In this document: in pieces, positions 11,778 through 64,000 of the stretch
Layout of the letters: each line of letters opens with the position of its first letter
Numbering within the stretch: the first letter of the stretch is position 1
DNA from: Fibrobacter succinogenes
Lineage (GTDB): Bacteria; Fibrobacterota; Fibrobacteria; Fibrobacterales; Fibrobacteraceae
Direction of reading: 5' to 3'
DNA length: 64,000 nt
Assembly: GCA_902791475.1 (NCBI GenBank)
Contig: CADAWC010000028.1
Coordinates: forward strand, 1-64,000
Position numbers and translations under genes: made by a program
Notes under the pieces: model-generated
The model's input: the letters and a program-made list of their open reading frames with translations, nothing else
The model's database searches: none
What the model was told of the DNA's origin: nothing

Positions 11778-12608
11778 ATGGCAGAAATCTTTGATTACGA
11801 TGACTACCGGGATATGATCAAGGATTATTACTTGGAGCATAAGAAACACAACTCCTTGTATTCCTTCAGTACTCTCGGCAAGACGCTTGGCTTGGATTCA
11901 AGTCACGCTTACTACATTGTTCAGAAAAAGCGCAATCTCCCCGTCCACGCAGTCCCCGCCGCAAAAAAAATGCTCGGGCTCGACGGTCGCGGAGCCGCAT
12001 ACTTCGACTTGTTGATTGTCGCATCGCGCACAAAATCCGAAAAGACAAAAGCTGAAATTCTGCAAAAGGCGTTCCAGCTGCGCGACGTGAAACGCCATTT
12101 GCTCAAGGACAACGAGCTCAAGTATCTCAGCGCCTGGTGGACAATCGTCGTAAGAGCGCTTATCGAAGTGAAACACGGCAACGTGGACATTCCGGAAATT
12201 GCAAACAGCGTAATTCCGCCTATCACCGAAGAACAGGCGCAAGAAAGCATCGAGATTTTAAAGTCGCTCGGATTTATCCAGCCGATTAACAACAACAGCA
12301 AAGTCCGCCTCGCCGACCCGCACATCACGGTTCAAGGCGCCGAAAAGGCAGAAGCCATCCGCAGTTTCCATTCAAAGGTCATGCAGTTTGGCATTCGCTC
12401 TTTAAGCGAAATCCCGCCAGAAAACCGAGATATTTCGACCATCACCATGGCGGTCGATTCCAAGGGCTTCGAAGACCTCAAGAAGATGCTCAAGGAATTC
12501 CGCAAAGAAATCCAGATCCGCGTCGATAAGTGCATCGTCCCCGATCGCGTTATGCAGTTGAACCTCGCCCTATTCCCCGTCGCACTCAATAAAAAGAAGG
12601 AAAAATAA
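11778..12608 (+). CDS. TIGR02147-family regulator, copy 1
   Basis: 276 residues from ATG 11778, where the family sequence begins (MAEIFDYDDYRDMIKDYYLEH). Residues 10-70 look like a helix-turn-helix: FSTLGKTLGLDSSHAYYIVQ then KKRNLPVHAVPAAKKML. The C-terminus ends VMQLNLALFPV, equivalent to VYRLNLQLFPL in the other two copies. The family (Fibrobacter 'second paralogous' family, related to DUF4423) is abundant in Fibrobacter and thought to regulate transcription. The stop is followed after one base by the ATG of a lipoprotein gene, an arrangement repeated in the other two loci. It is the most divergent of the three copies. Confidence 0.88.
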   Translation: MAEIFDYDDYRDMIKDYYLEHKKHNSLYSFSTLGKTLGLDSSHAYYIVQKKRNLPVHAVPAAKKMLGLDGRGAAYFDLLIVASRTKSEKTKAEILQKAFQLRDVKRHLLKDNELKYLSAWWTIVVRALIEVKHGNVDIPEIANSVIPPITEEQAQESIEILKSLGFIQPINNNSKVRLADPHITVQGAEKAEAIRSFHSKVMQFGIRSLSEIPPENRDISTITMAVDSKGFEDLKKMLKEFRKEIQIRVDKCIVPDRVMQLNLALFPVALNKKKEK

Positions 12609-12609
12609 A

Positions 12610-14145
12610 ATGAAAAATTTTAACAAGCTTCTTTATTTGGTACCCTTTGGACTCCTCGCTGCTTGCGGAACAGGCAACGACACCGCAGGGAATACGACGG
12701 AAATCGAAAACGCCATCGCGATTCGAGTTTTTGACGACGGTGCACCGGCTGCCAAAGTACGCTACCAGGTGCTCCCCTCTTGGTACGTAGCCGACACTGC
12801 CGAAACAAGCGCCGTAAAGTACACCTACGAAGGCGAAACCGATACAAACGGTTGGGTGCATATCGACGGCCACCAGAACGGATCTTACACCATCAATTTC
12901 ACTAAGGGCGATTCTTCCATCGTCTTGCAGTACACGCTCAACAACCTGAACCACGAATACACGCTCGACAGCGCATCGCTCGAAGCGGTAGGCACGGTCA
13001 AGGGTCTCGTCGATTTGCCGGACTCCGCCAATTACGCCTGGGTTGCCGTTCAGGGCGTGAACACCATCGTCAAGACCGATACACTCGGACAGTTCGTCAT
13101 CCAGAAGGCTCCATGCGGGAACCTCACCGTGAGCGCCTGGGATTCCGATGAACTCGGAGCCATTGGCAAGACATCCGCAGTTGTGACCTCGAACAACACG
13201 ATTGACCTCGGCCTCATCGAAAACCCGAACAAGGTCGTTCCTGAAAACGCCATCCGCTTTATGCCATCCGATTTGATTTCGGACTGGATGCGCCCGCTCA
13301 GTTTCCCGACCGTTCTCGTTCTGCGCCTGACCGAAGAAAACTTTGACTTCTCTAAGGCAGAGAAGGACGGTAGCGACATTCGCCTCTACGACGGAAGCGG
13401 CAACCTCATTCCGTTTGAAATCGACGGCTGGGACACGACCATCAACAGTGCAACCCTCAACATCCGCGTCGAAAGCGCAGCTGATACCGTCAGACCGTGG
13501 ATGCTCATGTGGGGCGACAAGAAGGCAAAGAAGATTGAAGACGTCGATGTTTGGGAAGGGCTCAGCGATTCGCTTATCAGCGCTCTCAACAGCGTCGAGG
13601 TTTTGAATTTCGAAGCAGGCACCGACTTAAACGCACTGCCCGCGCCACTTGACTACAACTGGTACGTACAACCGCACGATAGTGCAACGGTCAAGAACAA
13701 CCTTGACCAAAAGCCGACCAACGGCATCGAAAAGGCTGACAGCACCATCTTCGGCAAGAACATGCTGCATGTGCAGTACCAGGCGAACAAGCTCGGACGC
13801 TACGTTGTCATCGGGACGCGCATAGCCGCGCACCAGCACGACTTGAGCAGACTCGACTCCGTGGAAGTTTGGCTCAAGGGCAGCGGGGATTTCGAAGTAT
13901 TCCTCGAGACGATTGTAGAATCCGATACAAACTACAAGACCTCGTATAAAGGAAGTGTCAACGAAGAATGGACTCGTGTCGCCATCAAGCCATCCGATTT
14001 CACAAATCCGGACAAAAAAAGCTACCACGGCTGGGACGTGACACGCAACAAGATTACGCGCTTTACCATCTTTGTGTACAACGGCACGGATATCTGGATT
14101 GATAACGTCAGAATGTACGGGATCAATTTAGACGACTTGCTGTAA
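12610..14145 (+). CDS. Surface lipoprotein with DUF2341-like and carbohydrate-binding-like domains
   Basis: 511 residues. Signal peptide with lipobox LAACG (Cys20). Residues 35-110 form a beta-rich region with VRVFDDG/NGWVHIDG features; 130-200 resembles a carboxypeptidase-regulatory-like beta sandwich (GTVKGLVDL...DTLGQFVIQKAPCG). Residues about 225-315 fit DUF2341 (FPTVLVLRLTEENFDFSKA, DIRLYDGSGNLIPFEIDGWD). The last 170 residues end in DIWIDNVRMYGI, the closing strand typical of jelly-roll carbohydrate-binding modules. I infer an outer-membrane glycan-binding protein. It is coupled to the TIGR02147 regulator one base upstream, with AAGGA as ribosome site. Confidence 0.8.
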   Translation: MKNFNKLLYLVPFGLLAACGTGNDTAGNTTEIENAIAIRVFDDGAPAAKVRYQVLPSWYVADTAETSAVKYTYEGETDTNGWVHIDGHQNGSYTINFTKGDSSIVLQYTLNNLNHEYTLDSASLEAVGTVKGLVDLPDSANYAWVAVQGVNTIVKTDTLGQFVIQKAPCGNLTVSAWDSDELGAIGKTSAVVTSNNTIDLGLIENPNKVVPENAIRFMPSDLISDWMRPLSFPTVLVLRLTEENFDFSKAEKDGSDIRLYDGSGNLIPFEIDGWDTTINSATLNIRVESAADTVRPWMLMWGDKKAKKIEDVDVWEGLSDSLISALNSVEVLNFEAGTDLNALPAPLDYNWYVQPHDSATVKNNLDQKPTNGIEKADSTIFGKNMLHVQYQANKLGRYVVIGTRIAAHQHDLSRLDSVEVWLKGSGDFEVFLETIVESDTNYKTSYKGSVNEEWTRVAIKPSDFTNPDKKSYHGWDVTRNKITRFTIFVYNGTDIWIDNVRMYGINLDDLL

Positions 14146-25959: not shown

Positions 25960-27792
25960 TTAGTTACCACACTGGTCATAGGATCCGAACTTATCCACGA
26001 CAAATTCGCCATCCACAGGGAACTGAAGTCGCACGGACGTAATTTTTCCGATGACATCTTCAATCTTTTCACTAGATTCCTCGTCAATATTCTTGAAAGC
26101 CTTCCAAGAAACCTTGCCCCACGTCATGTCGTCGGAATATTCAACTTCAGTATACCAGTATTTATTTGCAGCGGCATCGGTGACAAGAGCGATTCTAATG
26201 AAGTTGTAAGTACTGTAATGGATGCAAAAGCCATCCCATGCGCTGATATCAGCCGGTTCATTATTTGAACTTACAGTATTAAAGCCAATCGTCGCAACAC
26301 TATCCAAATTATAGAGAAAATCATCAGATTTCACGTATGCCGTAAACTTATGATGTTTATTCAACAAAGATGCAATGACATTTCCGTTATCATCAGCTTC
26401 AACATCGTCGGGGAACCCGAAACTATACGTATCCATTTCATCCGGAGAGTTGGTCCAAACGCCACCAGCCGTTGCACCGGAAATACCGAGATCCACATGG
26501 TCGCCGTCAACGGATGCATCCCACAAGAAGCTCTTTCCAGACTTGTAGCTAGAAGACTGTGTCGGTTTCACTTCTTCAAATTCACCTGATTCCTTAACAG
26601 AAAGGTTTTCCGGCACCAAGGCGCTAATACGTCTGATTTCGAAACGTGTTCCAGCCTTGTTTTCCTTTGCAAATTTCAAGCGAACCTTCGCCAAATGCTT
26701 CAGGATATCGTCAGAACCATTCAAGACATCGGCAAACACAGCACAGTTCTTTTCCATATCGTCGTTCTTTGCAAAAGTCATTGTCTTGACATTCTTTTCA
26801 AGAGTTCCCGTCGAGGAATCCCCAGGAACAAGTTCCATCACAATATCCATTTGCGATTCATATTCCAAGCACAGGCCCTTCCACAAGCTAGACACATCGG
26901 CCGTATAAATGAAATCCTTGTCATTTTTAGTGGTTTTCCCAGCAACAAGGAATCCAAAACCAACATCCGGATTTGAACTAGAACCCTCGAAGACTACATT
27001 TCCATAAAGGCCTTCATTATAATAGATTCTTTCTGCCATATCCGAAAAATCACCTTCGCCATCCCAGTCAAAGTAAGCTTCGGAAGAATTTTCAAAGAAA
27101 GCCAGCTCGCCAGAAGTACCCTTATCGCCTTTTTCAAAGCCAGTCTCTACGCGGGACTTGCCATCCTTACCAATCCACATATCCGAGCGAACATAAGGAG
27201 TCAGGCGCTGGATGCTAAATTCACCCGATGCACCCGATTCGCCCACAAAGACCAGCTGCACAGAGCGCACCTTCTTGACAACGTCAGAACCATCCGTATC
27301 ATCCGACTTCTTCATCTTGAAATCTTCCCAAGATGCGCAATGACTTTCGGATCCAGAATCCTTCATATTCAGGCTGACAAAAGGCACATCCTTATCTACA
27401 GAAGAGCTTGCGTAGTCTTCCGTGTCAAGGCGAACTTCCACAACAAAGTCAGACTTGTACGAGACGCACAAACCATCGCCACCCTGAGAAAGATCGGTTG
27501 GAGAGCCATCCGGGTTGGAAACATCATAGGCGATACCAGCACGGGCAAGGTCATCCCCGGACTTTTTCAGCGAAACACGGCCGAGCAAAGCGCTCTTGGT
27601 ATTTTCCAGCTTAATATCGGATCCCTTCATGACATTCCAATCCTTAAGATTGGCAGTCTCATTCCAGAATGCATTTTTTTCTTCGGTGGTTCCATAACTT
27701 TTGGAAGCCACGGAATCATCTGAACACGCCGTTAATGCAAGGGCCCCTAACAACCCCAAACACAAAACGTTAGTTCCAATGTATTTATTCAT
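25960..27792 (-). CDS. Lipoprotein with three divergent WxGxCxxY modules
   Basis: 610 residues from ATG 27792, with GAGGG upstream. Signal peptide with lipobox LTACS, then three tandem modules of about 190 residues. Each has an aromatic-Gly-Cys core (GDGLCVSYKS, LWKGLCLEYES, AWDGFCIHYST), a later Cys-x-x-W or W-D/E-x-F segment, and a closing strand such as GEFSIQRLTPY. These resemble, at lower identity, the modules of the 54-64 kb cluster. Probably surface-exposed and possibly glycan-binding (inference). The start is one base after the stop of the TIGR02147 regulator, so both share a message. Confidence 0.78.
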   Translation of the reverse strand: MNKYIGTNVLCLGLLGALALTACSDDSVASKSYGTTEEKNAFWNETANLKDWNVMKGSDIKLENTKSALLGRVSLKKSGDDLARAGIAYDVSNPDGSPTDLSQGGDGLCVSYKSDFVVEVRLDTEDYASSSVDKDVPFVSLNMKDSGSESHCASWEDFKMKKSDDTDGSDVVKKVRSVQLVFVGESGASGEFSIQRLTPYVRSDMWIGKDGKSRVETGFEKGDKGTSGELAFFENSSEAYFDWDGEGDFSDMAERIYYNEGLYGNVVFEGSSSNPDVGFGFLVAGKTTKNDKDFIYTADVSSLWKGLCLEYESQMDIVMELVPGDSSTGTLEKNVKTMTFAKNDDMEKNCAVFADVLNGSDDILKHLAKVRLKFAKENKAGTRFEIRRISALVPENLSVKESGEFEEVKPTQSSSYKSGKSFLWDASVDGDHVDLGISGATAGGVWTNSPDEMDTYSFGFPDDVEADDNGNVIASLLNKHHKFTAYVKSDDFLYNLDSVATIGFNTVSSNNEPADISAWDGFCIHYSTYNFIRIALVTDAAANKYWYTEVEYSDDMTWGKVSWKAFKNIDEESSEKIEDVIGKITSVRLQFPVDGEFVVDKFGSYDQCGN

Positions 27793-28665: not shown

Positions 28666-28712
28666 AATATAACATATTTTGTATCATTAGACAAGTTTCC
28701 AATGATACAAAA
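28666..28712 (-). promoter_or_regulatory. Promoter and operator of the TIGR02147 copy 2 operon
   Basis: On the minus strand: -35 TTGTCT (28689-28694), 17-base spacer, -10 TATATT (28666-28671). A perfect 12-bp inverted repeat TTTTGTATCATT / AATGATACAAAA occupies 28677-28688 and 28701-28712, one arm in the spacer and one just upstream of the -35, an ideal place for a repressor. Confidence 0.7.
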
Positions 28713-28745
28713 TTAAAAAAATTCACTTTTTTTTGCCTAAAGGAC

Positions 28746-54251: not shown

Positions 54252-55808
54252 CTACTTGGAAGTGATTTCACGCGTTTCAAAAGAGCACGCGCCATTAGCG
54301 GAATATTTCCCAATACCTGCCAAATTAAATCTGCATTGTTCTTGATCTACAGTGCCCTTTATAGCAAACTGGATAGCACCAACAGCTCGCCCCATATCAG
54401 GATCATTCGGCGCAATTTCATTCCAGGTAAAGCATTTTTCGACAAGACCTTTGGACTTTGGCAAAGCGACCTTAGGAGAGTTCTCGTAAGGAACATCTTT
54501 TACAACAAAGTTCAGGTAAGCATCCTTTTCGGAATAGTAAGTGACGCAAACACCACCCCAGTCTTGGATATCTTCAAAAACGTAATCGCCATCATTAAAG
54601 CCCGCAATATTAAACGAGACCCCGCCAACAGCGTATTCGGCCCCTTTCAAGATAAAATCCATCGTTCCACAAAAACCGAGACATGTCTCAATAAGACCTC
54701 CATACACTTCATATTCAAACTCCCCCGACAGTTCCACCGGATATTCAATATGAGTATAAGCGTCACCAGGAGACTCATCAAATTGTTCCAACCATCCCGC
54801 GTATCTGCTACGGTCATTATAGCCTGTTTTCACATGGGTTCCGTCAACCCCTTTCCACAGACAAGTCAAGGAATCATCATCAGGAAAATTTACATTGACG
54901 CCATCATTAGCAAAACCCCAATCATACGAAGATTCGTCCGGCTCGTAAGTGCTGATTCCCCTAATATTGAAAGTTCTCTTATCAACATCACCACGGCTAT
55001 CAATCTTAAACATGATGGACACGATTTCCTTTGCAGCCTCTTCTCCCGTATATACCTGGCGATTGATTGAATATTGGGAATATTTCCAATGTGTTATATC
55101 GAAATTGCTCCATTTTGCACATACAGTTTTAGGCTCGTTAATCCAATACAAATCACGAAGTGTAGGATCAAAAGAACCTCCGTTCGCCGTTATATTTAGA
55201 ATGCCCACAGGATATGCTTCGAACGGCAATATTTCGCTATTGGAATCAATTCCATCAATATTAACCTTCAAATAGACGTACATCCAATAATCAGATTCGT
55301 AAGTGACACAGATACCACCCCAAGACGAGACATCCGCCGTAGCGCCGTCCCTAGCAAGTTGGATTTCAAAACCCGCCCAAGGTTTAAACATTGAAGTATC
55401 GAATTCAACCGACCCACAAAGGCCATCGCAATGTTTAAAGACAGAAGCCAAAGGAGTCGATGAATTTTCAAGTTCGACAGGGAAAACAACCTTCGATTTA
55501 CCCTGTTGGCCAAACAAGTCATCGCCAAAGGTTCGCCAAAAGCCTGTGCTATCGTCTCCTGTATTGACCTTGTAGTCTACAGCTGGATCCCACAAATTAT
55601 AGCGGCGGGCCTTTACCGCACCACTTGAAGACAACGCTCCGTTTGAAGAAGATTCTATTACGCCGCCGTCACTCGAAAGAGCATCTACAGACGAGCTGCT
55701 TTCGCCAGCATTCGGCTCGGCAAACGGAACTGAGGGATTGTCATCAGAGCAGGCTACAAAGCCAAGCAACAAGGCTGAAGATGCGACTCCCAGGAATTTC
55801 TTAAACAT
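54252..55808 (-). CDS. Modular surface lipoprotein A (two WGGxCVTY modules)
   Basis: 518 residues from ATG 55808. Lipobox VACS and the SDDNPSVPF leader shared with its neighbour, then poly-serine linkers (GESSSSVDALSS). Two modules follow. Module A (about 70-310): NLWDPAVDYKVNTGDDSTGF, HCDGLCGSVEF, SSWGGICVTYESD, VCAKWSNF, RTFNIRGISTY. Module B (about 320-510): LTCLWKGVDGTHVKTGYNDR, ETCLGFCGTMDF, QDWGGVCVTYYSEKD, KCFTWNEI, FNLAGIGKY. Each has four conserved Cys, so disulfides are likely outside the cell. Fold and ligand are unknown; a jelly-roll glycan-binding module is my inference. It lies last in the minus cluster and shares its leader with the gene at 56034. Confidence 0.85.
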   Translation of the reverse strand: MFKKFLGVASSALLLGFVACSDDNPSVPFAEPNAGESSSSVDALSSDGGVIESSSNGALSSSGAVKARRYNLWDPAVDYKVNTGDDSTGFWRTFGDDLFGQQGKSKVVFPVELENSSTPLASVFKHCDGLCGSVEFDTSMFKPWAGFEIQLARDGATADVSSWGGICVTYESDYWMYVYLKVNIDGIDSNSEILPFEAYPVGILNITANGGSFDPTLRDLYWINEPKTVCAKWSNFDITHWKYSQYSINRQVYTGEEAAKEIVSIMFKIDSRGDVDKRTFNIRGISTYEPDESSYDWGFANDGVNVNFPDDDSLTCLWKGVDGTHVKTGYNDRSRYAGWLEQFDESPGDAYTHIEYPVELSGEFEYEVYGGLIETCLGFCGTMDFILKGAEYAVGGVSFNIAGFNDGDYVFEDIQDWGGVCVTYYSEKDAYLNFVVKDVPYENSPKVALPKSKGLVEKCFTWNEIAPNDPDMGRAVGAIQFAIKGTVDQEQCRFNLAGIGKYSANGACSFETREITSK

Positions 55809-56033: not shown

Positions 56034-57602
56034 TTACTGGATTGTCATCCCTTTCTTGCCAGAGACAAACGGATCTTCGCCTTGTTTGCAGACATTTTGC
56101 GCATCAACATACTTACCGACGCCGATAATATTAAACCTGCTTTCTAAGCCAGCCTCACCGTAAGTAACAAACAAAATCGAATTGAAATGAGCCGGATTAC
56201 CAGGGGTTTCCGCGTAGGTAGCGAAATCATTCCACTTAGAACATACCGTATTGACCTCGACACTCTTGGGCAACAAGATCCTAGGCATTATCGCAACTTT
56301 TTTAGCAAAAGAAGTGGTCGTATCGCTGAACATTACCACATCCATATCCGACTCCGAAGCGTAAGTCACGCACACACCACCCCAAGAAGAAGCATCGCCA
56401 AAAGCAACATATGTGTACGAACCATTTATAATTTCTCCCGCAATGTTAAACCCGACTCCCGCAACACCTGTATTCTTAAACTCCAACATACCGCAAACGC
56501 CTTCACAATAATCCATAACAGGATCTTCATCAGCGACATAAGTATATTCTAACGATTTAGGAAAAACGATTTTTGCATTTGGTTCATCGCCAAAGCTAAA
56601 CCAATATCCAGAAACTTCCGAACCGTTATCAATTCCGGTTTCTACACGATAATTATAATTTCCAACCGCCTCCGGAGCATACCACATATTGCTAATGACC
56701 TTCGAAGTTACACAATCGCCACTGCTAGAAGGTGTAGAAGACGAACTATTCGGATTTGAAGCAACGACTTTGCACGATCCGCCTGCAACGTACTTACCGA
56801 TCGAAACAATCTTAAACGGTCCAATCATAGACTCACCGCTTCTTTTCCCGAATTTAATGTTCCGGACTTTCTTGGCAGCCTCAGCACCGGGGATTGGATT
56901 TTCTGCATCGTCATAATCAAAATCATTCCAGGTAAAGCATTCTTCTACCAAATCATCTGATTGGCCCAATTCAACAATCACTTCCGTATTTTCGTCAACG
57001 CCAAGTTTCATGAACAAATTCAGACTCGAAGCAAACGTAACGCAAATGCCGCCCCAATCGCTAATATCGACAGACTTTGGAACTTCTACACTTTCACCAG
57101 GGTTTTCAAAACCGGCCACATTGAACGCCACGCCCACATTAGCTTCACGTGCAGTACCTCTCTTGACATACATCTTTCCACAAAGGCCACCGCAATGATC
57201 CACAATGTACTGCATACAATCCGAACCATCATTGGGGCAATCCACATCCCATACAACACGAGACAAGCCACCTTCGTTGGAATCATCATAAGAATACCAA
57301 TACCCGGCACCACTCTCAGCATTTAAGCCAAAGCCCGTATTTACGACAGATTCGCCCTTTTTGCCATTCCACAAACATGCCGTGGGATCCACAAGAGCGT
57401 CAGCACTGCTCGACGATACGCTAGCAACACTACTGCTTGAGGCGTCATCCGCAGTTTCACTACTTCCTGGAGCGGGTTCAATAGATGAGCTGCTTTCGCC
57501 AGCATTCGGCTCGACAAACGGAACCGACGGATTGTCATCAGAGCAGGCTACAAAGCCAAGCAACAAGGCTGAAGATGCGACTCCCAGGAATTTCTTAAAC
57601 AT
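56034..57602 (-). CDS. Modular surface lipoprotein B (two WGGxCVTY modules)
   Basis: 522 residues from ATG 57602. The first 35 residues are nearly identical to lipoprotein A (MFKKFLGVASSALLLGFVAC), followed by a Ser-rich linker. Module 1 (about 85-280): CLWNGKKGESVVNTGFGLN, DHCGGLCGKMYVK, SDWGGICVTFASS, ECFTWNDF, FKIVSIGKY. Module 2 (about 300-510): VISNMWYAPEAVGNYNYRVE, DYCEGVCGMLEF, SSWGGVCVTYASESDMDVVM, VCSKWNDF, FNIIGVGKY. Module 2 is more like the third module of the next gene than like module B. Role as for lipoprotein A. Confidence 0.85.
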   Translation of the reverse strand: MFKKFLGVASSALLLGFVACSDDNPSVPFVEPNAGESSSSIEPAPGSSETADDASSSSVASVSSSSADALVDPTACLWNGKKGESVVNTGFGLNAESGAGYWYSYDDSNEGGLSRVVWDVDCPNDGSDCMQYIVDHCGGLCGKMYVKRGTAREANVGVAFNVAGFENPGESVEVPKSVDISDWGGICVTFASSLNLFMKLGVDENTEVIVELGQSDDLVEECFTWNDFDYDDAENPIPGAEAAKKVRNIKFGKRSGESMIGPFKIVSIGKYVAGGSCKVVASNPNSSSSTPSSSGDCVTSKVISNMWYAPEAVGNYNYRVETGIDNGSEVSGYWFSFGDEPNAKIVFPKSLEYTYVADEDPVMDYCEGVCGMLEFKNTGVAGVGFNIAGEIINGSYTYVAFGDASSWGGVCVTYASESDMDVVMFSDTTTSFAKKVAIMPRILLPKSVEVNTVCSKWNDFATYAETPGNPAHFNSILFVTYGEAGLESRFNIIGVGKYVDAQNVCKQGEDPFVSGKKGMTIQ

Positions 57603-57805: not shown

Positions 57806-60115
57806 CTAGTTTCCAGTGACGAAATGTTCTTCTATAGGGCACTTTAAACTGTAATCATATTCCGCGTAAGTTGCATACTTGCCGAGTCCGTGAATATTGA
57901 TTTTTTTCCGGGTTCCTTTTTCCCCATAAACCACAAAGTTCACGGTCGTGAGATTCTTGGGGTCAACAAGTTTTCCATCGTCTGACTTAAATTCGTCCCA
58001 CGTCAAGCAGCGTGTCACCACCTCAGAACTCTTGGGAAGCGTCGCCTTAGGCAACTTGGGAAGCAGACTAATATCATGAACACCACTGCTATTCATCACG
58101 ACATCCATATCGGTCTCACTAGCATAAGTCACACAAATGCCGCCCCAAGACTTATCCACATCGCCACTAAGCAAGATGCTATCATTGTGATCAAATCCAG
58201 CTACATAAAATCCGAATCCCGCAAAATAGTCATCCTTAAATACGGCAGTTCCGCAAACGCCATCATCGTACAGGTTAGAACGACTCCCTCCACATGAATC
58301 AGGGAATTCAACTCCACCATCATCAATCAAACTAGCCAATTCTTCATCAGAGAAAGGCTGAATAAAGTTTGACTTATTCTCATCACTTGCATCTTCAATT
58401 CTATACCAACGTCCAGCCTCATCACTCCCAGACCAATTATAATCAGTAAACACATAGCCAAAAAATTCCCACAAATTCATCAGCAACACGCACTGTTCTT
58501 CGACATAAAGTTTATGATGCTTGGTTGTATCGACACTTGAACTGCTACGGATCCATGCCGAAGACGAGCTTTTCGGGGTGATAACAGGCGTTTCAATAGA
58601 GCACGCGCCATTATCGGAATACTTCCCTATACCCGCCAAATTAAATCTGAATTTTTCATAATCTACAGTACCCTTTACCGCAAACTGGATAGCACCTACT
58701 GCACGCCCCATATTGGGATCATTCGGTGCGATTTCATTCCAGGTAAAGCATCTTTCGACAAGTTCATTGGACTTCGGCAATGCGACCTTAGGAGAATTCT
58801 CGTAAGGAACATCTTTTACAACAAAGTTCAGGTAAGCATCCTTTTCGGAAAAATAAGTGACACAAACACCACCCCAATCCTGAATATTTTCAAAAACATA
58901 ATCATCAGTATAGCCTGCAATGTTAAATGAAATACCGCCAACAGCGTAATCAGAGCCATCCAGATTAATATCCATCGTTCCACAAAAACCAGCACACTCC
59001 CAAATAACGCTCGCAAACATATCAGGGCCAAACTCCATCGACGGATACGCAGGGTATTCAATATGAGCATAAGAGTTAGCAGGAGACTCATCAAAAGGCA
59101 CCAGCATACCCGCGTATTCGTCACGGTCATTATAGCCTGTATTCACATGGGTATCGCCCAAGCCCCCTTTCCACAGGCAGGTCAATGTATCATCGACAGG
59201 GAATCTCTCGTAAAATTTTTCATCCGGATACTTCCAGCCTTGTGTGGCATTACTTGGATCATAAGTACTAATACCCTTAATATTAAACACCTTATTTTCG
59301 TCATCACCGCGACTTTTAATTACAAACATTATGGACTGAATTTCTTTAGCCGCCTCATCCCCAGTATAAACTTTGCTAATCTGCGAAGAGCCACTATTTT
59401 TCGCCCAAGAGCTAACATCAAAACTGCTCCATTTCATGCATTCAGTTTGAGCTTTGTTTGTACTGAACAAATTGAAAAGCGTAGGCGCAGGAGATTCCCC
59501 AATAGTCGTTTCACTTAAATAATTAGCGGAATACGCTTCAAAAGGCTTCGTTAAGCTATTGGAATCAAATCCATCAACTTGAACCTTTAAATAAACACTA
59601 ATTGAATAATCAGATTCGTAAGTAACACAAATACCGCCCCAAGACGTGACATCCGCCGTAGCGCCGTCCTTGGCAAGCGGGATTTCAACACCCGCCCAGG
59701 GACCGATCATTAAGTAATCGGGTTCAATCGATCCGCACAAACCATCGCAATGTTTAAAGACAGAAGAAAGCGGCGTCGATGATTTTTCAAGTTCGACAGG
59801 GAAAATAATCTTCGATTCGCCCTGAAGACCAAACAGGTTGTCGCCAAAGGTTCGCCAAAAGCCCGTGCTATCGTCTCCCGTATTGACCTTGTAGTCTACA
59901 GCAGGGTCCCACAAATTGTAGCGGGCCGTTTTTACAGCACCAGTCGAAGAAGACTCGATTACGCCACCATCGCTCGAAAGAGCGCCTACAGACGAGCTGC
60001 TTTCGCCAGGAACCGGAGGCACCCAAGCTTCAGGTTGCGACGGATTGTCATCGGAACAGGCGACAACACCAAACAGCAAGGCTGAAATCACGCCACCAAA
60101 AATTCCCCTAAACAT
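57806..60115 (-). CDS. Modular surface lipoprotein C (three WGGxCVTY modules)
   Basis: 769 residues. Lipobox VVACS, leader SDDNPSQPEAW, Ser linkers. Modules 1 and 2 are very close to modules A and B of the gene at 54252 (NLWDPAVDYKVNTGDDSTGF; TSWGGICVTYESD; QDWGGVCVTYFSEKD; KVALPKSNELVERCFTWNEI). A further SSSS linker leads to module 3 (SWGGICVTYASETDMDVVMN ... RCLTWDEF ... INIHGLGKY), related to module 2 of the gene at 56034. The protein is a mosaic of modules found in its neighbours. Module 3 keeps GVCG but its preceding region is altered (SCGGSRSNLYDDGVCG). Confidence 0.85.
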   Translation of the reverse strand: MFRGIFGGVISALLFGVVACSDDNPSQPEAWVPPVPGESSSSVGALSSDGGVIESSSTGAVKTARYNLWDPAVDYKVNTGDDSTGFWRTFGDNLFGLQGESKIIFPVELEKSSTPLSSVFKHCDGLCGSIEPDYLMIGPWAGVEIPLAKDGATADVTSWGGICVTYESDYSISVYLKVQVDGFDSNSLTKPFEAYSANYLSETTIGESPAPTLFNLFSTNKAQTECMKWSSFDVSSWAKNSGSSQISKVYTGDEAAKEIQSIMFVIKSRGDDENKVFNIKGISTYDPSNATQGWKYPDEKFYERFPVDDTLTCLWKGGLGDTHVNTGYNDRDEYAGMLVPFDESPANSYAHIEYPAYPSMEFGPDMFASVIWECAGFCGTMDINLDGSDYAVGGISFNIAGYTDDYVFENIQDWGGVCVTYFSEKDAYLNFVVKDVPYENSPKVALPKSNELVERCFTWNEIAPNDPNMGRAVGAIQFAVKGTVDYEKFRFNLAGIGKYSDNGACSIETPVITPKSSSSAWIRSSSSVDTTKHHKLYVEEQCVLLMNLWEFFGYVFTDYNWSGSDEAGRWYRIEDASDENKSNFIQPFSDEELASLIDDGGVEFPDSCGGSRSNLYDDGVCGTAVFKDDYFAGFGFYVAGFDHNDSILLSGDVDKSWGGICVTYASETDMDVVMNSSGVHDISLLPKLPKATLPKSSEVVTRCLTWDEFKSDDGKLVDPKNLTTVNFVVYGEKGTRKKINIHGLGKYATYAEYDYSLKCPIEEHFVTGN

Positions 60116-60146: not shown

Positions 60147-62441
60147 TTAAAGAATAGCCGGTTCTTGGCATTTTAAATAAGATGTACCATCCAGTTTTTG
60201 ATACGGGGCAACACCCAAAATATTGAATGAACTGCTGAAATTTACGTCAGCGTAATCATAGAACAAAATCGACGATATCTTGGAAGGATCAATAGGTGCC
60301 CTTGTTTCTCTGTCAACAAATTCATTCCAGGATTTACATTCAATCTTGGCATAACCATCAGTCTGTGGCAACGTCACGCCCGGCAATTTAGATACATTTG
60401 CAAAATCATTTTGTTCAGCATCATTTATAGCAATATGTAAATCATTCTCTGAAGCATAAACAATGCACATGCCGCCCCAATATTTGAGACTTTTTGCCTG
60501 CAACTTGCCATTTTCATCTTTATCAGCAATGTTAAATCCGAAGCCAGCATTTCCAGCACCTTTATGTATGACACAAAGTCCCTGACAACGGTTTAGAACA
60601 GGTTGCAACGAATCCTGACCTAACTCGCTATTCGCTTGTACAGGATAAGTCATATTGACTTCGTCGTTGTCCTTGAATGCATACCAATGGCCACCATCAC
60701 CTGTCGCTGTCGAATACCCCGTTTTCACACTCAAATAACCATCCGGACCATACCAAACCGGACTGAGATTCTTGAAAGAGCACTCATCTTTATACACTTT
60801 GCTACTGCTGGAACTGCGCGGGGTTCGGCTCGAAGAACTTATCGGCGTGTAAGAGGTTTTGGGGATGGAGCAAGCCCCATTAGCAGAATATTTTCCAATA
60901 CCCGCTATATTAAACTGGTTCCTATCACCATCTTCATAGCTCTTTACTATAAACTGAACCGAGCTTACCGCAGACCCCATATTAGGATCATTCGGGGCTA
61001 GGTCACTCCAAGTAAAGCATTTTTCTACAAGCGCCACCGAAGCAGGGAGAATGGCTTTTGGAGAATCTTCATACGGAACGCCTTTTACAACAACATTTAA
61101 GTAAGCATCCTTTTCGGAATAGTAAGTGATGCAAATGCCACCCCAATCCTTGATATCGGCAAATTTAGCTTCTCCATAGCAAGTATTACCTTCACAAGAA
61201 GTCAATGTATCTTCAGCAATATTGAACGCTACAGCAGATGCGGCATAATCCGCTTTTTCCAAAGTAAACTCCATCGTTCCACAAAAGCCTTTACATTCAA
61301 CGATAATCGGCTCATACATATAGGGTTCATACTCCATTTCCCTATACGCGGGGAATTCTATTTTAGAATACGCCCCCTCGGGAGAAGCATCGAAATCATA
61401 CAGCATTCCGACAAATTCACCCCGATCATTATAGCCCGTATTGACTATTCCTGATCCATCCAAGCCTTTCCACAGGCAAGTCAAGGAATCGTCGTTTGTA
61501 GTAACCAGGCCTAAATCCCGTTCATTCGTACCGCCATCGCGATTCCATTGCGGAAGATTTTCATCGTAAGTACTGATACCTAAGATATTGAATTCTCCCG
61601 AGCCATCGGAATTACCCATAAATACAAAGTTGATTGCCTTGACTTCTTTAGCAGCCTCTTCGCCTGAATAGATCTTGCTCAATTTTGCCTTATTGTATTC
61701 CGCCCAACTGGACGTTTTAAAGTCGCTCCATTTGGCACAACGCGTAATGGCGACATCAGAACCAAGCATATTCTTAAGCGTCGGCGCACCCGTCACTGTT
61801 TTCGGAAGCGTAATGCCCGGATAGGCCATAAACGGAGACGCATAGGCAATCGTATCTATGCCGCCGACATCCACATTGAGATAGACACTCACCGGGTATT
61901 CAGAGGCATACGTCACACAGATACCGCCCCATGCAGAGATATCCACCGTTGAATTTTCTTCGGCAAGCGTAAAGCCAATACCCGCCCAAGGCATCATCTC
62001 CGAGCCATGCAACTCAACTGTACCACACACGCCTTCACAATATTCAAAAACAGGATCCAAGAAATCTGCAGTATATTCATTACCCATTTCCACAGGCCAA
62101 GTTATACGAGAATAATAATCATCGCTAAAACTGAACCAATACCCCGTATTTTCGTTATACGTATTGATCTTGTTGTCCGTTTTACCATTCCACAAGTCAA
62201 ACTTCGGAACAGCCTCTACACTGCTAGAGGATTGGACGGCAGAAGAGCTTTCGATAGCAGAGGAGCTGCCCACAACAGACGAACTGCTTTCGCCATAAAC
62301 AGACGAGCTACTTTCACCATAGGCAATCGGATTGCCATCTTCCGTGACTCCCGCTGTATTGTCATCCGAACACGCCACAAAGCCGAACACAAACGAGCAT
62401 GCAGAAATGCACGCCGATATGTTAAGAAGTTTCTTAAGCAT
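60147..62441 (-). CDS. Modular surface lipoprotein D (three WGGxCVTY modules), coupled to regulator
   Basis: 764 residues. Lipobox FVACS, then three or more GESSSSVYGESSSS-type linkers. Module 1: FDLWNGKTDNKINTYNENTG, EYCEGVCGTVELHG, SAWGGICVTYASE, RCAKWSDF, FNILGISTY. Module 2: LTCLWKGLDGSGIVNTGYND, ECKGFCGTMEF, KDWGGICITYYSEKD, KCFTWSDL, FNIAGIGKY. Module 3: WYGPDGYLSVKTGYSTATG, RCQGLCVIHKG, KYWGGMCIVYASEND, ECKSWNEF, FNILGVAPY. Its ATG lies inside the end of the TIGR02147 gene (8-base overlap). It is the founder-like gene of the cluster, the only one here directly coupled to a regulator. Confidence 0.87.
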   Translation of the reverse strand: MLKKLLNISACISACSFVFGFVACSDDNTAGVTEDGNPIAYGESSSSVYGESSSSVVGSSSAIESSSAVQSSSSVEAVPKFDLWNGKTDNKINTYNENTGYWFSFSDDYYSRITWPVEMGNEYTADFLDPVFEYCEGVCGTVELHGSEMMPWAGIGFTLAEENSTVDISAWGGICVTYASEYPVSVYLNVDVGGIDTIAYASPFMAYPGITLPKTVTGAPTLKNMLGSDVAITRCAKWSDFKTSSWAEYNKAKLSKIYSGEEAAKEVKAINFVFMGNSDGSGEFNILGISTYDENLPQWNRDGGTNERDLGLVTTNDDSLTCLWKGLDGSGIVNTGYNDRGEFVGMLYDFDASPEGAYSKIEFPAYREMEYEPYMYEPIIVECKGFCGTMEFTLEKADYAASAVAFNIAEDTLTSCEGNTCYGEAKFADIKDWGGICITYYSEKDAYLNVVVKGVPYEDSPKAILPASVALVEKCFTWSDLAPNDPNMGSAVSSVQFIVKSYEDGDRNQFNIAGIGKYSANGACSIPKTSYTPISSSSRTPRSSSSSKVYKDECSFKNLSPVWYGPDGYLSVKTGYSTATGDGGHWYAFKDNDEVNMTYPVQANSELGQDSLQPVLNRCQGLCVIHKGAGNAGFGFNIADKDENGKLQAKSLKYWGGMCIVYASENDLHIAINDAEQNDFANVSKLPGVTLPQTDGYAKIECKSWNEFVDRETRAPIDPSKISSILFYDYADVNFSSSFNILGVAPYQKLDGTSYLKCQEPAIL

Positions 62442-63261
62442 GATTTTTTCCCTCCTCCCACGTCAGCGGGAACAACTGTAAATTCAATCTGTAGACACGA
62501 CCGACGCCACGGCCTTTCAAAGCGATTTGAGCGATGCGCTTACGGCAAGCATCAATTTCTTGCACAATTTGCTCGTAATCTTCGTCCGAAATTCCCATGG
62601 TAAGTCCAGAATAATTACGTTCCGTCGCAGAAAATTTTTCAAGAGCCTCATCCGCAAAATGAATCATTTCGTGATGCAAAGAACGCATCGCCACGGACAT
62701 GATTTCTGGAGAACCCGTGAGATGCCTATCGACCTGTTCGTAGGCATCGCCATTTTTCTTTAGGAGTCCCGCATTTACCATAAAATCGAGCGACTCGCGG
62801 ACTTCCCCCGCGGAGGCATCCAAACAACAACGCCTCGCTATTTCACCCGGAGTCGCTCCTGGCATCACCGGCGCTAGCTCTCTCACCACCGGATGTATCC
62901 AAGTTTCAAAATACTTATACGCATCGCCATCGACAACTTTTACCGCATTGTCTTTTGCAAGTTTAAGCATCGCTTCAAAAACGGTTTTGCGATCGGCATC
63001 CGTTTTAGCATGGCAGCATTCCACCATCAACTTAAAATAGTCAAGCTCGTAACCCACTAAATGCATTGCGGCACCGACTTTTTCTGCACCAACGGATGAA
63101 AGGCGCGTTTTGCCTTCACAGACCAACTTCAAGTACGTCGGCGATGTAAAACCCGCTGCACGCGCAAATTCACGCCACGAAAACGATGATACGCGTTTCC
63201 GCTCATCGTAATAGTCCTGCATGTAGCAGCGATAATCCTGATACTCCGTAATCGGTTTCAT
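62434..63261 (-). CDS. TIGR02147-family regulator, copy 3
   Basis: 275 residues from ATG 63261. MKPITEYQDYRCYMQDYYDE, helix-turn-helix candidate FSWREFARAAGFTSPTYLKL, LSGLTMGI-type core (YSGLTMGISDEDYEQIV) and C-terminal VYRLNLQLFPL. Very similar to copy 2. The first gene of the transcript that includes lipoprotein D and perhaps the genes beyond. Its promoter (63269-63310) carries GTATCAT in the same position as copy 2. Two Cys-rich stretches (VECCHAK, RRCCLD) are specific to this copy. Confidence 0.9.
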   Translation of the reverse strand: MKPITEYQDYRCYMQDYYDERKRVSSFSWREFARAAGFTSPTYLKLVCEGKTRLSSVGAEKVGAAMHLVGYELDYFKLMVECCHAKTDADRKTVFEAMLKLAKDNAVKVVDGDAYKYFETWIHPVVRELAPVMPGATPGEIARRCCLDASAGEVRESLDFMVNAGLLKKNGDAYEQVDRHLTGSPEIMSVAMRSLHHEMIHFADEALEKFSATERNYSGLTMGISDEDYEQIVQEIDACRKRIAQIALKGRGVGRVYRLNLQLFPLTWEEGKNHA

Positions 63262-63268
63262 AATAACA

Positions 63269-63310
63269 AATATACATTGCATTTTTCAAAAGTGCAATAT
63301 TTCATGATAC
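63269..63310 (-). promoter_or_regulatory. Promoter and candidate operator of TIGR02147 copy 3
   Basis: Minus strand: -35 TTGCAC (63292-63297), 17-base spacer, -10 TATATT (63269-63274). GTATCAT (63304-63310) ends six bases before the -35, and the inverted repeat ATTGCA / TGCAAT spans the -35 and spacer. A second GTATCATGAAA lies near 63373-63384. Confidence 0.6.
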
Positions 63311-63446: not shown

Positions 63447-64000
63447 CTAGAAAGAAGTCACTTTCGAGGAATCAATAGAGCAAACGTCTTTGGTATCATA
63501 CATGCCAACAGCAATGATATTGAAGCGGATTTGATTAAATACATTTTCACTCGAATAAACTTCGAACTTGATGTCGGTCGCTTTTTCCGCCAATCCTGAG
63601 CTAGAGAAATCGTCCCAAGCGATGCATTTTTCGACAGGCGTTGCAGCAGCTTCCATAACATTTTCCGTTTCGAGCGAATCCGAGGCCAACACAACACGCA
63701 TATCTTTTTCGGCCATGTAGTACACACAAATTCCGCCCCAATCGCTAATATCCGTTGCAGTTACAACAGTATCTCCATTATCACCTTTAACGGCCATTTT
63801 GATTCCAATACCCGCATACGCACGGGACGCGCTGCCCATATCCAAAGAGACTCTTGCCGAAAGCCCACCTTCAAACAATTCATCGTCAGTCAGCCATTCG
63901 ATAGAGTTCTTGTAGCTCGGAGCGTCTGCAGACCAATACAACAGAGAAGCACCACCATCATTACGGTCATTGTAGGAATACCACAATCCGCCTTTTATTC
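63447..64000 (-). CDS. Modular surface lipoprotein E, C-terminal part (partial)
   Basis: The frame is open to the right edge; 184 codons are visible up to the stop at 63447 and the N-terminus is missing. It holds one module: LWYSYNDRNDGGASLLYWS, ISDWGGICVYYMAEKDMRVV, KCIAWDDF, IRFNIIAVGMYDTKDVC. The CxGxCG motif region reads FEGGLSARVSL here, so two of the usual cysteines are absent. It lies upstream of the TIGR02147 regulator in the same direction and has its own terminator, so it is a separate transcript. Confidence 0.82.
   Translation of the reverse strand, partial: IKGGLWYSYNDRNDGGASLLYWSADAPSYKNSIEWLTDDELFEGGLSARVSLDMGSASRAYAGIGIKMAVKGDNGDTVVTATDISDWGGICVYYMAEKDMRVVLASDSLETENVMEAAATPVEKCIAWDDFSSSGLAEKATDIKFEVYSSENVFNQIRFNIIAVGMYDTKDVCSIDSSKVTSF

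Follow-up and report, generated by a model that had tools for sequence, protein, structure and literature searches.

Recurrent pairing of TIGR02147 regulator and lipoprotein genes in Fibrobacter suggests a repertoire of self-regulated operons

The window analysed here, a stretch of 64,000 nucleotides, is part of contig C28 of a 3.86 Mb Fibrobacter genome. Three loci in this window combine a gene for a TIGR02147 regulator with a directly following lipoprotein gene (Table 1), and the open reading frame coordinates confirmed an earlier note on this DNA, which had reported these arrangements with gaps of 1, 1 and -8 bases. A fourth pair is located just beyond the window, where the regulator occupies C28:64828-65628 and its lipoprotein reaches to about C28:63447. 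The lipoprotein of the target pair consists of the lipobox FVA-C, the mature start CSDDNTAGVTEDGNPIA, a Ser-rich linker and three CBM-like repeats. The TATATT box of the promoter predicted for this pair ends 7 bases before the regulator ATG. In pair 1, the lipoprotein has the mature start CGTGNDTAGNTTEIENAIA and a marginal DUF2341 match; its regulator represents a divergent subgroup, and no operator repeat was found in the search upstream of the regulator gene (11778-12608).

Table 1. Features of the regulator-lipoprotein pairs and of neighbouring genes, given as window positions
Feature	Position	Strand	Evidence or remark
Pair 1 regulator, TIGR02147	11778-12608	+	PF14394 and TIGR02147 profile matches
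Pair 1 partner lipoprotein	12610-14145	+	lipobox; 1-base gap after regulator
Pair 2 partner lipoprotein	25960-27792	-	lipobox; 1-base gap; three divergent CBM-like repeats
Pair 2 regulator, TIGR02147	27794-28627	-	PF14394 and TIGR02147 profile matches
Pair 2 operator inverted repeat, ATTTTGTATCATT-n12-AATGATACAAAAT	28676-28713	-	
Additional lipoprotein	54252-55808	-	CBM-like repeats as in target
Additional lipoprotein	56034-57602	-	CBM-like repeats as in target
Additional lipoprotein	57806-60115	-	CBM-like repeats as in target; 31 bp downstream of target lipoprotein
Target partner lipoprotein, 764 aa	60147-62441	-	8-base overlap with regulator
CBM-like repeat 3, target lipoprotein	60198-60779	-	repeat alignment
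CBM-like repeat 2, target lipoprotein	60885-61487	-	modelled, pLDDT 91
CBM-like repeat 1, target lipoprotein	61563-62204	-	repeat alignment; fold modelled for repeat 2
Target pair regulator, TIGR02147/DUF4423	62434-63261	-	profiles, AlphaFold2 model, fold search
Target predicted promoter	63269-63297	-	TTGCAC 63297-63292, 17 bp spacer, TATATT 63274-63269
Target proximal operator copy, GTATCATGAAA	63300-63310	-	6 bp upstream of -35 hexamer
Target distal operator copy, GTATCATGAAA	63373-63383	-	73 bp from proximal copy
Fourth pair's lipoprotein, 3' part inside window	63447-63998	-	

Profile searches assigned the three window regulators to TIGR02147 (196-304 bits, cut-off 50) and to PF14394/DUF4423 (93-104 bits, cut-off 30), and all 35 regulators of the genome exceed the TIGR02147 cut-off. 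The target regulator, for which an AlphaFold2 model with a pLDDT of 90 was obtained, comprises an XRE-like HTH at about residues 25-65 and a MarR-like winged helix at about residues 150-183. A fold search with this model yielded local matches of the N-terminal HTH to HigA-type proteins (2ict, TMt 0.61), weak MarR-type matches of the middle winged helix and no PDB entry matching the whole protein. Only weak local HTH-type matches were returned by a PDB sequence search with the regulator profile. Surface signalling through an ECF sigma factor and an inner-membrane anti-sigma factor of the FecR type was rejected, as the arrangement comprises two genes, neither component was present and the three window regulators match DUF4423/TIGR02147 only.

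Lipoproteins were recognized by pattern and not with SignalP, requiring an n-region, a hydrophobic stretch and a lipobox with its cysteine at position 14-45. The partners display this pattern of a signal peptidase II substrate, and all three window partners carry a lipobox. Downstream of 33 of the 35 TIGR02147 genes of the genome (two of them with frame-shifted partners, on contig C74), the next ORF on the same strand contains a lipobox, usually within about 15 bases of the regulator stop codon and up to about +30. The same test applied to other genes, drawn from about 260 kb of genome stretches plus the window, detected a lipobox ORF next to 11 of 230. This difference corresponds to a binomial p of about 1e-41, calculated over paralogues that are non-independent draws, and a chance origin of the pairing is excluded. 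The survey of the gene after each TIGR02147 gene had been proposed in the earlier note and came out in favour of the pairing. Counts of paralogues taken by themselves would inflate the significance, and the stronger argument is that the pairing recurs in other families and in a second phylum, evidence that is free of this weakness. The TIGR02147 family was detected in 157 of the 168 genomes searched of the phylum, and a single genome contained as many as about 60 scored copies. In other genera, families and classes of the phylum, the single best loci showed the pairing in 52 of 60 cases (44 of 61 by script and eight more by eye, with one locus at a contig end), and an independent scan of public genomes (80 loci, 91 regulators) identified a lipoprotein as the next gene for 83 regulators. 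In the second phylum, to which one of these 80 loci belongs, the family is present in 37 of 46 genomes, none of which belongs to the 168 of the first, and a lipoprotein follows 36 of 39 regulators (32 by script, four by eye).

Several loci illustrate the variation around this arrangement. The gene at L043:7001-7816 (G000:C27) is the sole TIGR02147 gene of the genome without a downstream lipoprotein and is flanked on both sides by secreted-protein genes on the opposite strand, and at L039:3446 the partner is reduced to a truncated signal peptide. Five near-identical pairs are located at contig ends (G000 C1:348-4276 and C74:2148-9957; loci L039 and L040). In two C74 copies, the lipoprotein frame is interrupted a short distance past the lipobox, and among the C1 copies one ends prematurely behind its signal peptide, which could reflect recombination, frame switching or assembly error. 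Within the same family, a genus (L136, L138-L141; genus g8 and neighbours) contains one TIGR02147 copy per genome in every carrying member. In this group the partner is a lipoprotein of 214-231 aa (VAGGTSEETNTLA), and the single-copy pair represents a minimal version suited to genetics.

The bodies of the partner lipoproteins are diverse, and the 31 complete partners of the genome fall into 13 similarity classes. Domain matches include CarboxypepD_reg, Laminin_G_3, Fib_succ_major, pectate lyase and CBM_4_9; at the sequence level, TIGR02145 was detected in only three of the 31 and a CBM family in only one. What the partners have in common is a motif that follows the lipid cysteine (AGxxTETxN / GGSETGNP); its form is AGxxTETxN in Fibrobacter, GGSETTNG in other members of the phylum and GGTETGNP in the second phylum. 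Two earlier regular expressions, too loose or too strict, were replaced by a profile that was built from one set, leaving out the first three mature residues, and was evaluated on held-out sequences. This profile separated partner from non-partner lipoproteins with a held-out AUC of 0.985, and with 0.86 for the partners of the second phylum. The motif is absent from 18 non-partner lipoproteins of the same loci. Judged by its sequence distribution, the AGxxTETxN stretch is a tag shared by the partner class, and it offers a means of predicting partner lipoproteins.

The earlier note had considered the lipoproteins plausibly ligand-binding, and for the target lipoprotein this is supported by its CBM-like repeats. 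The three repeats of about 200 residues are shared with the lipoproteins at 57806-60115, 56034-57602 and 54252-55808 and more distantly with that at 25960-27792. The model of repeat 2 (pLDDT 91) is a beta sandwich of the jelly-roll type, whose best PDB matches in a Foldseek search were CBM30, CBM11 and CBM29, with E values of 1e-5 to CBM30 and CBM11 and a probability of 1.00, but with TM-scores of about 0.45-0.5. The target lipoprotein has no Pfam match and no PDB profile match to CBM families. Because of this lack of a sequence-level match, the repeats are proposed to work like a CBM, and family membership is not claimed.

In the main regulator subgroup, a word occurs twice in the upstream region, once just upstream of a -35-like hexamer. 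For many regulators, this repeated word has 7-12 bp and its two occurrences ahead of the start codon are separated by about 60-77 bp, and direct repeats of at least 8 bp at a spacing of 69-74 bp occur in 7 of the 35 own promoters, compared with 0.26 in shuffled sequences and 2 of 94 control promoters. A strict search for a full distal inverted repeat plus a proximal half-site retrieved 17 of 204 (1.7 in shuffles), a signal that is real and incomplete, and simpler pair patterns were used for this reason. In counts that include orthologous and hence non-independent promoters, 17 of 19 GTATCAT pairs in 13 genomes lie 45-48 bp before a TIGR02147 start, all eight GTGTTCCCA pairs in 31 genomes lie 30-31 bp before such a start, and 16 of 27 GTTGCAT pairs precede one, with a 17th cut by a contig end. 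The Fibrobacter genome studied here contains three GTATCAT pairs, all of them 45-48 bp before a TIGR02147 start. The same patterns read backwards gave 2 (GTATCAT), 0 (GTGTTCCCA) and 3 (GTTGCAT) matches. For many regulators, these searches did not find an operator pair. The interval between the two operator copies is A/T-rich and contains a TGCTTAAAATT-like word that recurs.

Each operator class corresponds to one class of the recognition helix, with no exception among the regulators found: every regulator with GTATCAT has a helix of the SPx[YF]LKLVC type, every regulator with GTGTTCCCA has SSSG[LF]YLDLI and every regulator with GTTGCAT has [TS]S[SC]SYMKVVC. Partial Mantel tests of this match on 18 representatives gave p values of 0.002-0.005 for the whole upstream region and of 0.03-0.12 for two promoter sub-regions alone; in a larger set, operator sharing correlates with DUF4423 similarity too. 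An own-promoter operator that matches the recognition helix, as expected of a self-regulating operon, was thus found for three operator classes. Since operator pairs at fixed distances track the recognition helix, regulation of the own operons is strongly supported, and binding of each regulator to its own promoter is very probable. Operator pairs also stand directly before regulator-less lipoproteins (GTATCAT at L372; GTTGCAT at L404/L418, L421 and L423), including one in this genome (L421, G000:C11:84233-84310), which suggests control in trans and small regulons. A -10-like box without a Shine-Dalgarno sequence near the start was observed for 15 of the 35 regulators and 10 of 94 control genes, and starts about 6-12 bases past such a box were noted for regulators 07, 19, 21 and 26 and at window positions 63262-63275, where leaderless transcripts are probable. 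Because the TATATT box is positioned 7 bases before the ATG, the target transcript is probably leaderless.

As a whole, these observations are best explained by self-contained, self-regulated regulator-lipoprotein operons that form a repertoire of parallel switches, a reading that we consider probable. Each pair would constitute one operon, with reading frames that overlap or nearly touch and with the regulator and a lipid-anchored envelope protein produced from one transcript. The one-component regulator, consisting of the N-terminal XRE-like HTH plus DUF4423, would read its own operator through one copy beside the -35 box and another that lies roughly seven helical turns farther upstream, the latter often itself an inverted repeat. 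Binding would set the expression of the operon. Class II activators bind at the position held by the proximal copy, and for this reason autoactivation appears more likely than repression. Variation of the recognition helix would provide each paralogue family with different operators and the cell with many parallel switches. The lipoproteins, with their carbohydrate-binding or other modular domains, may serve the attachment to, or the sensing of, plant polysaccharides. The earlier note had proposed one functional system in which the regulator controls, and is perhaps informed by, its own surface protein. The recurrent coupling of a cytoplasmic HTH protein to its own lipoprotein stands, the operator pairs and their match to the helix make predicted control of the lipoprotein well supported, and the lipoproteins would presumably be displayed at the cell surface. 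For feedback in the opposite direction, from lipoprotein to regulator, a weak covariation between motif and DUF4423 is no more than a hint.

A different reading, which we place a little below an even chance, holds that the regulator senses a cytoplasmic metabolite through DUF4423 or the winged helix and that the motif is a sorting signal comparable to the lipoprotein export signal of Bacteroidetes. Metabolite sensing is common among one-component regulators, the motif is placed where a sorting signal would be, and many mature starts read CSDD-, in partners as well as non-partners, and are acidic like export signals. However, a signal read by one machine should not vary with the regulator clade, the other lipoproteins of the genome lack the motif, and the fold search with the regulator found no metabolite pocket or catalytic relative.

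It is unlikely that DUF4423 binds either the AGxxTETxN motif of its own lipoprotein before export or a peptide cleaved from that lipoprotein, and thereby gauges the export or amount of this protein. The L032-group orthologues would fit such sensing in that they all keep GTVTDTGNT as the motif, whereas their signal peptides drift down to 10% identity and their bodies to 56-81%. Motif versions follow the regulator clades, the motif is confined to partners within the loci, and a Mantel test of motif against DUF4423 similarity given the HTH (partial r 0.30, p 0.002) is suggestive only, with no correlation of the motif with the HTH given DUF4423. Yet linked genes are co-inherited and clade-specific motifs are therefore expected regardless, the lipoprotein bodies likewise correlate with DUF4423 (r 0.55), and the 67-residue HTH segment is shorter than DUF4423 and a poorer phylogenetic marker. 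We hold it to be slightly less likely still that the tag serves as a password by which the HTH proteins of dozens of parallel circuits each directly sense the synthesis or export of one surface protein; if true, this would constitute a cassette system of matched operator, tag and surface domain conserved in two phyla.

A pheromone-type circuit as in enterococci, in which the regulator binds a re-imported peptide derived from the signal sequence of the lipoprotein, would agree with the position of an HTH regulator gene next to a lipoprotein gene and has enterococcal and RRNPP precedents (PMC7117660, PMC9765709). It is very improbable here and largely refuted, since conservation within the pair is lowest in the signal peptides (10-30% among several orthologues that share a fixed motif), the partner has no conserved pro-peptide, and the regulator model shows a winged helix and long helices instead of a TPR array, with no RRNPP match. 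Equally improbable is a functionless adjacency, in which one ancestral pair was duplicated often and its genes stayed linked: the tandem near-identical pairs on contigs C1 and C74 would agree with it, whereas order and near-zero spacing are kept in a second phylum, bodies belong to 13 unrelated classes, and operator pairs precede both regulator genes and regulator-less lipoproteins. A toxin-antitoxin module was rejected because the partner gene encodes a lipoprotein.

Through self-regulated regulator-lipoprotein operons, a large gene family whose function is unknown would acquire a likely role. In the genome paper on F. succinogenes, the transcriptional control of cellulases was left unanswered and few regulators were noted in the vicinity of cellulase genes (PMC3079729). 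In envelope proteomics, 40 of the 49 lipoproteins that were quantified decreased on cellulose (PMC6851124). With about 35 cassettes whose operators can be read, the control of envelope proteins, and perhaps of fibre attachment, becomes directly testable. The match between operator and helix offers a natural specificity code for studies of XRE-type DNA recognition.

The literature searched contains no paper that mentions TIGR02147 and a single one that mentions DUF4423, as a list entry for Bdellovibrio. All 35 regulators are members of NCBIfam TIGR02147 (Fsuc_second) and Pfam PF14394 (DUF4423), whose entry describes a paralogue family of unknown function and does not describe the lipoprotein pairing, the operators or the motif. 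HigA-type antitoxins and XRE autoregulators resemble the regulators in local HTH matches (2ict) and in own-promoter binding, which is predicted here, but the pairs have a lipoprotein partner in place of a toxin gene and the regulators an extra winged-helix domain. RRNPP regulators with lipoprotein-derived pheromones (PMC9765709) likewise adjoin their partner gene, but the regulators described here have no TPR domain, their partners' signal peptides are unconserved and the phyla differ. The Sus-type glycan lipoproteins of Bacteroidetes (PMC5080379) are similar in their many parallel loci and lipid-anchored glycan-binding proteins, and the Bacteroidetes export signal (PMC5080379) is also an N-terminal sequence after the cysteine. 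In contrast, the pairs have no SusC/TonB porin, the regulator is a soluble one-component protein and the motif varies by regulator clade. The TIGR02145/FISUMP (Fib_succ_major) lipoproteins of Fibrobacter are putative cellulose-binding proteins (PMC4704652), and earlier Fibrobacter work ascribed putative functions in cellulose binding or adhesion to TIGR02145 and TIGR02148 proteins. The FISUMP domain is present in three of the 31 partners, but most partners are without it, and the common features are the N-terminal motif and the regulator. Autoregulated one-component operons are already known, and regulator-lipoprotein pairing as a control of surface proteins looks undescribed; the new element would be an extensive repertoire of regulator-lipoprotein cassettes that carry a common tag.
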